From Saccharothrix obliqua (GTDB lineage: Bacteria; Actinomycetota; Actinomycetes; Mycobacteriales; Pseudonocardiaceae), in assembly GCF_019375475.1 (NCBI RefSeq), contig NZ_JAHXGQ010000001.1, forward strand, positions 930,001 to 994,000: a stretch of DNA of 64,000 nt, in the 5' to 3' direction. Position numbers and translations under genes: made by a program. Under the pieces are notes generated by a model that worked only from the letters and a program-made list of their open reading frames with translations, ran no database searches and was not told where the DNA came from. This document shows, piece after piece, positions 44,970-62,939 of this stretch; positions within the stretch are counted from its first letter, which is position 1, and each line of letters begins with the position of its first letter.

Positions 44970-45020
44970 CGCGCCGGACGGGGCACGGTCGCGCCGTGCC
45001 CCGCGCAACGCCAGTAAGAG

Positions 45021-45053
45021 GAGAGAGCCCCGCCGGCCCGGCGGGGCTCTCTC
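45021..45053 (+). terminator. Terminator after rho
   Basis: A perfect 16-bp stem (GAGAGAGCCCCGCCGG and complement) with a single-base formal loop lies 51 bp after the rho stop and is followed by CGCATTTG. It is among the strongest hairpins in the window. Confidence 0.85.
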
Positions 45054-45092
45054 GCATTTGCGGGTGACGAGGTGGGGGCCGGTGCGGCACGG

Positions 45093-45282
45093 GAGATGCG
45101 GGGCCGGCTGGTTGGTGGTGGTGCGGCGAAGTGAGGGAGTGGCGGTGGGTCGGGCCGGCTGGCCGGCGGTGGTGCGGCAGGCAGGGTGAGATGCGGCGGG
45201 GCTGGCCGGCTGGTTGGTGGTGGCGAGGTGGGGCGGGGAGTGGCGGTGGGGCCGGGCTGGGCGGTGGTGCGGTAGGGCGGAT
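45093..45282 (+). repeat. Degenerate G-rich tandem duplication, 95-bp period
   Basis: Segments GAGATGCGG, GGCCGGCTGGTTGGTGGTGG and GGAGTGGCGGTGGG recur in the same order about 95 bp apart. The region is strongly G-skewed on the plus strand and non-coding. With the flanking bases it fills most of the gap between the rho terminator and the palindromic element. Confidence 0.7.
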
Positions 45283-45349
45283 AACCGCTCGGGGGCGAGG
45301 CGAGGTTGCCGGCAAGTCGTTCCGCGGCTTCGCCGCGCACTCCGGCTCG

Positions 45350-45533
45350 CTGCGTGTCATCCCCGTATGGCCTGCGCGCCAGCGAACCGCGCTTGGTCAG
45401 GGAGGGCAAGCACGCTTTTCGCTTGCCCTCCCTGACCAAGGGTGGTTGTCTTGACCAGGCCATACGGGGATGACACGCAGCCCGCCCTTGATGTCATCCT
45501 TGGCGGCCTGCCAAGCGGCGAGCGTCGCTCTTA
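45350..45533 (-). repeat. Palindromic 184-bp element, copy 1 (hypervariable-stem hairpin)
   Basis: Outer perfect 25-bp inverted repeats (45350-45374 and 45456-45480, beginning CTGCGTGTCATCCCC) enclose 17-nt and 15-nt spacers and a perfect 20-bp stem, CTTGGTCAGGGAGGGCAAGC (45392-45411) with its complement at 45421-45440. The 9-nt loop is ACGCTTTTC. A 53-bp tail (45481-45533) with a small CTTGGC/GCCAAG hairpin completes it. In the leftward orientation the order is tail, then hairpin. It lies between the convergent rho gene and a membrane-protein gene whose stop is inside the tail. Copy 2 is at 62701-62884. Confidence 0.95.
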
Positions 45534-45919
45534 TCTTGTTCGCACCCGGCCTCAGCCGTCCGTCTCCGCTCCGCTATGCACTGCCCCACCAGCAGCAACA
45601 CCACCGGCACACCCACCGCGACCGCGAGGACGACCGGCACCTTCACACCGTCCACCGCGATCCCGAGCAGCAGCCACCCGCCGAGCCAACCCCACCGCAG
45701 CCACACCCGCTGCCACGTGCCACGCCAGGCGACCAGTCCGCTGCCACCGATCCCCACCGCGACCGAAGCGCCGAACAGCGAACTCGACAACCCGATGTCC
45801 CGCGGGGCGCCGACGAACAACCCGGCGAGCCCAGTGAGTCCCAGCACAGCGCTGGCGAACAGGAACGGCACAGCCAGCCACGCCACCAACCGCAGCGGGC
45901 GTCCGGATACGCACAGCAC
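45494..45919 (-). CDS. Small integral membrane protein, 141 aa
   Basis: Four hydrophobic helices are evident (LVAWLAVPFLFASAVLGLTG, LFGASVAVGIGGSGLVAW, GWLGGWLLLGIAV and VPVVLAVAVGVPVVLLLVG), linked by short loops with Trp and Arg. There is no catalytic motif. The start is the GTG at 45919; no clear ribosome site is visible, so it is uncertain. The last dozen codons and the stop come from the tail of palindromic element copy 1, so the original C-terminus has probably been replaced by the element. The gene runs against rho and away from rpmE. It is not part of the usual rho-rpmE-prfA order, so it is probably an insertion. Confidence 0.6.
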   Translation of the reverse strand: MLCVSGRPLRLVAWLAVPFLFASAVLGLTGLAGLFVGAPRDIGLSSSLFGASVAVGIGGSGLVAWRGTWQRVWLRWGWLGGWLLLGIAVDGVKVPVVLAVAVGVPVVLLLVGQCIAERRRTAEAGCEQDKSDARRLAGRQG

Positions 45920-46025
45920 GGGGGCCAGTTTTCCGGGGCGGGGCCTCCCGTGACCGCTCTCAGTAGTCCAACGGCTACTTCATGCGCCAAATGGTCGATC
46001 CGCTACGACAAGCGGCACCACTCTC

Positions 46026-46138
46026 CGCGCTCCGGGATGTCGCTCCGCGCTCCGGGGCCGCGCTCTGGGGCCGCGCTCCGGCACCGCGCTTCGGGGGTCG
46101 TGCTCCGGCACCGTGCTCCGGCACCGCGCTCCGGCACC
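46026..46138 (+). repeat. 13-bp minisatellite, about eight copies, upstream of rpmE
   Basis: The unit CGCGCTCCGGCAC, with variants, starts at 46026, 46046, 46059, 46072, 46085, 46099, 46112 and 46125. A 13-bp period does not keep a reading frame, so it is non-coding. It fills the middle of the 367-bp gap between the membrane-protein gene and rpmE, whose promoter must lie in or after it. Confidence 0.85.
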
Positions 46139-46286
46139 ACACGCCACCCCCCGGGGAACATCCCAGGCGGGTAGTGCGTTTTCACCCATGCAGACCACAT
46201 CTGGCACACTGTCAGGTCGAGTCCGGCTCCGGTTCACCTCAGGGAACACCGAGGACCCGGCGGCCACCGAAGAGAGGGACAAGACG

Positions 46287-46502
46287 TTGAAGACCGGCAT
46301 TCACCCCGAGTACGTGACGACCGAGGTCACCTGCGGCTGTGGGAACACGTTCACCACGCACAGCACGAAGACCTCCGGCTCCATCCACGTCGAGGTCTGC
46401 TCGAACTGCCACCCGTTCTACACCGGTAAGCAGAAGATCCTCGACACCGGTGGCCGGGTCGCGCGCTTCGAGGCCCGTTACGGCAAGCGCAAGGGCAAGT
46501 AG
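46287..46502 (+). CDS. rpmE: 50S ribosomal protein L31, zinc-binding type
   Basis: A 71-residue ribosomal protein with the start [19 protein letters not shown]. The cysteines of the zinc-containing C+ form are present (TCGCG and [10 protein letters not shown]). The start is the TTG at 46287, with GAGAGGG upstream; no ATG or GTG fits the family N-terminus. The protein ends GKRKGK. It lies between rho and prfA as in other actinobacteria, followed by its own terminator. Under zinc limitation this form is usually replaced by a Cys-free paralogue under Zur control, which is not encoded here. Confidence 0.96.
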
Positions 46503-62679: not shown

Positions 62680-62700
62680 GGACGCGACCGGTTGAAAGCT

Positions 62701-62884
62701 TAAAAGCGACGCTCGCCGCTTGGCAGGCCGCCAAGGATGACGTGAAGTGCGGGCTGCGTGTCATCCCCGTATGGCCTGGTCAAGACAACCACCCTCGTTC
62801 CCAGGGCGCAAACGAAGTGCGTGTTTGCGCCCTGGGAACGAGCGCGGTTCGCTGGCGCGCAGGCCATACGGGGATGACACGCAG
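62701..62884 (+). repeat. Palindromic 184-bp element, copy 2 (hypervariable-stem hairpin)
   Basis: Same architecture as copy 1, inverted. The 53-bp tail is at 62701-62753, the outer 25-bp inverted repeats at 62754-62778 and 62860-62884, the spacers at 62779-62793 and 62843-62859, and the perfect stem CTCGTTCCCAGGGCGCAAAC at 62794-62813 with its complement at 62823-62842. The loop is 9 nt. Outer repeats and spacers are identical to copy 1; the tail matches at 49 of 53 positions; the stem at only 12 of 20. The tail faces the DUF2550 3' end. The rest of the gap, to 63071, holds no gene. Confidence 0.95.
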
Positions 62885-62905
62885 CGGGGTGGGGCGTGCG
62901 GCGTG

Positions 62906-62939
62906 GCCGCACACATAGGGGTCGCCGCACACATAGGGG
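62906..62939. repeat. Direct repeat of 16 bp, 18-bp period
   Basis: GCCGCACACATAGGGG at 62906 and 62924, separated by TC, beside the outer end of palindromic element copy 2. Confidence 0.85.

Follow-up and report, generated by a model that had tools for sequence, protein, structure and literature searches.

A four-way-junction element of pSAM2-type AICEs and Saccharothrix chromosomes: a candidate single-strand origin with REP-like dispersal

Rolling-circle replicons use a single-strand origin (sso), a region of the displaced strand at which host enzymes start the second strand, as set out in the available parts of three accounts (PMC4170104, PMC5714925, PMC3583192). The sso sequences are described as host-specific in the accessible text of a fourth (PMC5037232), which suits an element limited to one family, and the portion of an account of AICE replication that was available names no such module (PMC3218068). 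Among dispersed chromosomal repeats, the REPs are reported, in the available part of PMC3733652, to have a gene-end location and a bias towards heterodimers. The element described here has likenesses to both of these classes. It was noticed in a window, meaning the whole stretch of DNA that was analysed, of 64,000 nucleotides of Saccharothrix obliqua (contig NZ_JAHXGQ010000001.1, positions 930,001 to 994,000 of the forward strand), from a genome of 8.04 Mb in 49 contigs (G000; genus Saccharothrix). Coordinates given without a locus name are those of the window.

Both palindromic copies were present where the initial annotation, made from the letters alone, had located them, and in opposite orientations, with copy 1 (locus L031) on the plus strand and copy 2 (L045) on the minus strand, which is its canonical strand. 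When the two were aligned in a single orientation they matched the earlier description, and the 25-bp outer repeats, the 17- and 15-nt spacers and the eight paired differences in the 20-bp inner stems were all borne out. The outer stem (P1) is 26 bp long instead of 25; its left and right arms lie at 45349-45374 and 45456-45481 in copy 1, and at 62860-62885 and 62753-62778 in copy 2. The spacers had been read as an asymmetric internal loop, but they are not open: they hold the mini-hairpins CGC-GCCA-GCG (P2; 45375-45384 in copy 1, 62850-62859 in copy 2) and GTC-TT-GAC (P4; 45448-45455 and 62779-62786), so that the fold becomes a four-way junction. The inner stem of 20 bp stood, but AACC/GGTT pairs lengthen it to 27 positions (P3), one of which is a G.G mismatch in both copies. 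In copy 1, the P3 left arm (45385-45411, of which the inner 20 nt at 45392-45411 form the variable stem) is joined by the apical loop ACGCTTTTC (45412-45420) to the right arm (45421-45447); the corresponding parts of copy 2 are the left arm (62823-62849), the loop ACGCACTTC (62814-62822) and the right arm (62787-62813).

A further mini-hairpin, P0, lies on the 5' side (CGCGGC-TTC-GCCGCG at 45323-45337 in copy 1; 62896-62912 in copy 2). On the 3' side of copy 1, P1 is followed by a linker with GTCATCC, a third and partial copy of the P1 left arm (45482-45499), and by a tail with a TTGGCGG.CTGCC motif, a GGCGAG hairpin and a T-rich end (45500-45534); the linker and tail of copy 2, which end in ..GTCGCTTTTAA, occupy 62700-62752. 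These assignments were based on stem statistics over 145 copies for P0, on genome repeat matches for P1 (with alignment and covariation in copy 1), on a shuffling test for P2 and P4, on covariation for the P3 arms of copy 1 and the parsed copies for those of copy 2, on the parsed copies for both loops (with the sequence itself in copy 1), and on alignment for linker and tail, to which a terminator scan was added for the tail of copy 1. Altogether the element is a non-coding module of about 220 nt, in which a four-way junction (P1-P4, a core of about 133 nt) is accompanied by extra 5' and 3' hairpins. An ordinary L31-Actinobacteria ribosomal protein leader (RF03158, E 1.1e-07) was also present in locus L031, at 46223-46265 (2374-2416 of the locus).

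The element is a repeat of high copy number. In the genome of the window, blastn scored 40 of 85 candidates and all 40 were near-full-length, which gives at least 40 copies where the initial annotation had seen two. The outer 25-mer, with up to three mismatches, occurred 29+26 times in this genome and 0 times as a reversed control, which speaks against chance as its source. Recognisable copies were found by pattern in nine of the 25 Saccharothrix genomes and in two genomes of genus g22, with 90 forward pattern matches in one Saccharothrix genome (G001); pattern matches outside Saccharothrix and these two g22 genomes look like chance or an unrelated repeat. A covariance model of the alignment A1 described below had hits with E <= 0.001 in 22 of the 25 Saccharothrix genomes, a count in which a single copy may score on both strands. 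Weak hits of the model in ten genomes (23 stretches) were relatives with other arm sequences and an unchanged plan, and many of them have an 18-mer of the tail in common with G000. This 18-mer was present in 124 of 390 Pseudonocardiaceae genomes, representing 25 of 46 genera, while its reversed control gave 0 in every genome; single matches in some genomes may be chance. Both P1 arms accompanied 23 of the 29 tail matches checked and were not found at six, three of which (L369, L378, L401) resemble variants by eye. The same architecture was seen in other genera of the family, so that a search of this genome and its relatives returned a large family with many copies in Saccharothrix and relatives across the Pseudonocardiaceae. 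No description of the element was found in the open-access literature that was searched.

Several variations were observed among the loci. The A-type linker of G003 (L145:1700-2300 and other loci) carries extra nested palindromes made of AAGCTTTTCAAGCTTCGAAGAAGCTTGAAAAGCTT-like units. In L065, L083 and L128 the 3' side enters short tandem GCTTTT-like repeats, as if the end slips or extends. A near-identical inverted-repeat sequence of the CCGGTATGGCCTGCG.. type, present in several genera of the family (L314, L316-L318, L320), seems unrelated to the element. A longer, autonomous copy was considered and rejected, as the unpartnered left arms were explained by a contig edge (L030), a divergent right arm (L025) and a truncation (L165), with no inserted gene.

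The fold was assessed on 145 canonical copies parsed from nine genomes, 125 of which were distinct. These were obtained from 153 raw detections, of which nine were put aside as reversed or spurious and one of the nine was restored. Alignment A1 comprised the 108 of the 125 distinct copies that are 125-140 nt long, from five genomes. In A1, 97.2% of the cells of P1 (26 pairs) and P3 (27 pairs) were paired, compared with just 37-45% in slid-register controls. Cells changed on both sides numbered 738 against 203.9 after shuffling, and double changes occurred at 32 of the 53 pairs; the correlated stem changes that had been proposed from two copies are therefore a property of the whole alignment. 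Neither of the outcomes that the initial annotation had named as refuting, a total of just two copies or changes without correlation, was observed. P2 had at least 3 bp in 123 of the 125 distinct copies (shuffling expectation 67.9), with the stem versions CGC/GCG, CCC/GGG, GCCC/GGGC and GGC/GCC and, among these 123, a GNA loop in 85 and a GCCA loop in 36. P4 had at least 3 bp in 116 of the 125 (expectation 23.4), as GTC/GAC, GCC/GGC or GGC/GCC. P0, the stem sequence of which varies from copy to copy, had at least 4 bp in 95 of 145 copies, against 33.2 when shuffled; in a control window at a distance, 24 of 145 had such a stem. The partial P1 left arm in the tail is GTCATCC or GTTCTCC, tracking the two arm types A and B.

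The pairs that depart from Watson-Crick pairing were distributed unequally. In A1 (Saccharothrix), 143 cells were G.T and 12 were A.C; the A.C cells were found in one copy each, or in two at a single column, and G.T states in up to 61 copies, as at column 45/100 (61 G.U, 38 A-U, 9 G-C and no A.C). Scored once per genome, column and type over the outer stem and the 20-bp stem, the counts were 27 G.T and 10 A.C, and by columns the excess was weak (G.T alone at 12 columns, A.C alone at 4 and both at 7; p = 0.08). A slight bias towards G.T is built into these counts, as the outer arms were delimited with G.T permitted. A further 23 copies, which come from six genera and are not part of A1, had 43 G.T and 3 A.C, counted with a script that penalised G.T less than A.C and so leaned slightly the same way. 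A double-stranded cruciform gives no reason for this asymmetry, and therefore one particular strand, as RNA or as single-stranded DNA, is likely the selected folded form. The earlier suggestion that the folded single strand is what matters is well served by these data, with nearly all pair cells standard, G.T spread on one strand and A.C rare.

A link to mobile elements was found at the loci with tail hits. Twenty-five loci of up to 20 kb around such hits were selected manually, most of them in genomes with few hits, although G007, which is rich in other copies, was included. The RepSA of L384 or a homologue (41-87% identity, tblastn) was present in 11 of the 25, and among these an FtsK-like match was found in seven, GntR in seven and an integrase in eight. 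RepSA loci with more than one of these genes had them in largely the same order, with the matched integrase of L383 on the other side of the element. Ten of the 11 loci have the element on the RepSA strand, about 1.7 to 8.4 kb upstream of RepSA; in the remaining one (L391) it is on the opposite strand, 0.2 kb away. The Pfam domains of L384 included RepSA (PF20199, E 2.5e-152), GntR/UTRA and phage integrase, those of L383 GntR/UTRA and integrase, and those of L385 FtsK. No RepSA homologue was present in the other 14 fetched loci: two (L385, L387) had other AICE genes and no RepSA within the fetched stretch, three (L393, L396, L398) had GntR or integrase matches only, and in nine nothing AICE-like was found. 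The element is thus co-located with pSAM2-type RepSA AICEs, a link that lies beyond what could be seen from the letters of the window. The AICEs of G005 (L364:2037-2975) and G019 (L384:17206-18381) were observed to be 86-93% identical in GntR, p460, p280 and RepSA and 26% identical in their integrases. A subfamily with a longer variable apical part (L025:1500-1720, L068, L077, L373) is nearer to the AICE-borne form.

The best explanation, to which we would assign a probability of about 0.5, is that the element is a non-coding AICE module, most likely an sso, that was amplified in Saccharothrix chromosomes to a REP-like repeat. The module would belong to the pSAM2-type AICEs of Pseudonocardiaceae, upstream of the regulator, transfer and replication genes and nearly always on the RepSA strand. 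RepSA would displace one strand by rolling circle, and the displaced strand, as single-stranded DNA and not as RNA, would fold at the module and recruit host enzymes to initiate the second strand, as at a minus-strand origin. In part of Saccharothrix the module would have spread from AICEs over the chromosome, to reach tens of copies. These would be tolerated chiefly where genes end, in most cases between two convergent genes, and would tend to keep their place and orientation while being overwritten by one another, with stems changing on both sides at once. For a folded module that is non-coding, nearly strand-fixed, family-limited and located in RepSA AICEs, an sso fits best. Several observations count against the sso reading. 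The gene-end copies on the chromosome have no obvious use for an sso, and more than half of the loci (14 of a hand-chosen 25) were without a RepSA homologue. Three RepSA plasmid records, two from Streptomyces and one listed under Kutzneria but described as Streptomyces sp., were without the element, the sole match of the model there having E 0.34. The element was likewise not found in plasmids and phages by blastn or in viral contigs by exact-pattern scans, and the opposite strand in L391 weighs on the same side.

A structured non-coding RNA of the AICEs, with a role in copy control, incompatibility or transfer for instance, would account for several of the same observations, and we hold it to be a possible, if tentative, explanation. 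Its chromosomal copies would be transcribed as parts of 3' UTRs or as stand-alone units, with the 3' hairpin and T run as terminator. For the G.U pattern and the terminator-like tail, transcription into RNA is at least as good an explanation as single-stranded DNA: on one strand the G.U pairs have been retained and have become widespread, for example at column 45/100, the excess of G.T over A.C holds across genera, the copies lie at 3' ends, and copy 1 has a terminator-like site at 45514-45529, a GC hairpin followed by a T run (one found; 0.4 expected from shuffles). The orientation of the copies argues the other way, as 29 copies at tandem sites were sense and 26 antisense to the genes, with no preferred orientation. 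In addition, over the element Rfam gave no hit above threshold, the best sub-threshold hit of a search that included L358 (mir-5881, E 5.7e-4) lying in L358 away from the element, and a sigma-70 consensus scan of 45000-46300, the sole promoter scan, returned 0 promoters.

The position of the chromosomal copies relative to genes was examined with a simple codon-usage gene finder, and none of the 145 copies overlapped a called gene. At 114 distinct sites, the flanking genes were convergent at 60, tandem at 46 and divergent at 8, compared with 12, 41 and 53, respectively, for background gaps of at least 100 bp (n=106; from the window and the same loci); the difference in orientation was highly significant (Fisher p = 3e-11 and 4e-13). 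In G021 and G003 the copies often form tail-to-tail pairs with homologous spacers, and 24 of the 26 pairs listed for these two genomes combine the unlike types A and B. The arrangement is different in G017 and G004 (L371, L363), where two elements stand head to head and their tails point outward. Among the matches listed, none of 32 G007 copies lay beyond 0.75 of the half-length from dnaA (KS p = 2.6e-4), and none of 24 G003 copies beyond 0.67 (KS p = 1.8e-3). Origin-proximal clustering as a rule was rejected, being contradicted by G001, in which dnaA lies at 3.33 of 6.88 Mb and the copies at 0.12-0.31 Mb, near the far point.

The convergent bias, the avoidance of called genes and the pairing of unlike types are also what would be expected if the element were primarily a REP/BIME-like extragenic palindromic family, acting at gene ends as a barrier to transcription or topology or in mRNA 3' protection, with the AICE copies as hitch-hikers. 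This is a rather doubtful explanation, since a REP, at 20-40 bp, is several-fold shorter than the element, AICE genes adjoin it in 11 of the 25 loci, and Y1_Tnp was missing in seven of the 11 genomes with blastn matches, being present in the window's own genome, G005, G016 and G024.

Flanking-gene orthology indicated that the same gene gaps are occupied by elements in different species. Where one element faced one element, orientation was kept in 20 of 23 site pairs and opposite in 3, and among the 15 with both flanking genes matched it was the same in 13 and opposite in 2. Members of the same type agreed in orientation 9 times and disagreed once at pair-versus-pair sites, and at one-versus-pair sites they were the same in 8 cases and opposite in 4; as the site pairs have loci in common, these counts are not fully independent. 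The sequences followed the genome and not the site. The 32 orthologous pairs in which both type and orientation agree had a median identity of 0.781, and 31 of the 32 fell below the within-genome medians of both genomes. Orthologues were no closer than other cross-genome comparisons (18 higher, 3 equal, 11 lower). In a quick tree of 131 cores the genome label changed 12 times, whereas 200 shuffles gave 63 changes or more. Sampling from the other genomes had taken the copies closest to the G000 query, a choice that works against the result. As orthologous sites mostly keep orientation and sequences are genome-specific, this points to concerted evolution, which, like the AICE link, is beyond the reach of the initial annotation. 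A homogenised core between locus-specific edges was ruled out, the 5' edge and the tail being likewise genome-specific. An alternative to concerted evolution, that elements have inserted repeatedly in a favoured orientation, keeps some plausibility here: flanks are saturated beyond about 35 nt, genome-specific sequence extends over the 5' edge, the core and the tail alike, and the orientations at one-versus-pair sites are mixed.

Recurrent insertion would be expected of a non-autonomous transposon (MITE) driven by a transposase into preferred gene-end sites, the orthologous sites being hotspots that were hit repeatedly. A high copy number in some species and near-identity of the copies within a genome would agree with such an origin, as would the comparison of the copy-2 site, the gap after a DUF2550 gene, in 25 species (printed stretches of at most 560 nt each). 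At this site G000 and G007 have the element in the same orientation, G003 a tail remnant, G001 a copy in the opposite orientation and G023 a pair; in the remaining species no element was seen in the printed stretches. The MITE explanation appears unlikely given the orientation kept in 20 of the 23 one-copy site pairs. Moreover, neither a target duplication nor an autonomous copy came to light, in a comparison without a clean empty site, and Y1_Tnp and RVT_1, the only transposase and reverse transcriptase families searched, do not track the element. Mobilisation by IS200/RAYT was rejected, Y1_Tnp (PF01797) occurring in five of the 25 genomes, including the window's own (one match), and being absent from the carriers G001, G003, G007, G018, G020, G021 and G023. 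A retron or other reverse transcription was also rejected, RVT_1 being absent in the carriers G001, G003, G007, G020 and G024 and present in the other six of 11.

How stems change is recorded by those variable stems within a genome that are alike except at a single pair. Such differences were two-sided in 33 cases (20 double transitions and 13 double transversions) and one-sided in 7, and among 1380 pair cells of variable stems there were 11 G.T and 6 other mismatches. The paired changes fit fold-back correction, template switching or gene conversion by other copies, together with selection for pairing, and the self-correcting palindrome proposed in the initial annotation is therefore plausible; overall, its interpretation was partly supported. 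That template switching, as described in the available part of PMC8794818, or hairpin-directed repair produced the perfect stems by itself, with no selected function, is very improbable, for the predominance of two-sided changes and the double transversions would follow from it, but neither the tolerance of G.T and not A.C on one strand in many genera nor the retention of P2 and P4 would.

The element provides a clean natural record of a fold that stays fixed while both arms of its stems change freely, and it does so in dozens of copies per genome, at positions that are orthologous in several species. With it, the persistence of perfect palindromes and the concerted evolution of dispersed repeats become open to test. 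A possible location for the sso in the pSAM2-type AICEs of antibiotic-producing Pseudonocardiaceae is suggested as well, and the element shows that parts of AICEs can become, or derive from, abundant chromosomal repeats. A more speculative and on balance unlikely extension is that a captured ICE origin module was amplified to punctuate convergent gene pairs throughout the genome. Its copies would stay uniform through repeated overwriting, either by single-stranded DNA that active AICEs supply or by the element folding back on itself, and the repeat family would thereby track the AICE version of its lineage. The chromosomal copies might then act as decoys affecting AICE maintenance.

Compared with known systems, the element resembles the sso of rolling-circle plasmids (such as sti of pIJ101), and AICEs such as pSAM2, in being non-coding, strongly folded as a single strand, limited in host range and, at part of its loci, carried by a rolling-circle replicon. 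It also resembles them in lying nearly always on the rep strand (10 of 11 AICE loci), a likeness of orientation and not of function. Described sso classes carry motifs such as RSB and CS-6. A rolling-circle initiator belongs to the carrier replicon of an sso; RepSA was found in 11 of the 25 loci, and the chromosomal copies of the window are without one. Unlike an sso, the element varies in its distance from RepSA, from about 0.2 to 8.4 kb, and is amplified to tens of chromosomal copies, of which no report for an sso was found in the open-access literature. ERIC, MITEs and other small bacterial intergenic palindromes are dispersed and have an inverted-repeat structure, as does the element, but its stems covary freely in a fixed frame, and no terminal repeats or target duplication were seen. 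Covariation and one-strand G.U pairs are shared with the structured RNAs of Rfam, from which the element differs in matching no family above threshold and in its unusual copy number and concerted evolution. An intrinsic terminator would resemble the predicted GC hairpin and T run of copy 1, but 26 of 55 copies at tandem sites are antisense to the genes. REPs and REPINs have an unpaired GTAG or CGTC tag at one end; in the element, CGTC occurs within the stem of the tail hairpin in one of its forms. With REP/PU, BIME and REPIN sequences it shares an extragenic location at gene 3' ends, the convergent bias and inverted pairs of unlike units, whereas it is a four-way junction of about 220 nt and not a hairpin of 20-40 bp (as given in the available part of PMC3733652), is not tracked by a Y1 transposase and occurs in AICEs. 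A proven member of neither class, the element is REP-type-like on the chromosome and a candidate sso in the AICEs.
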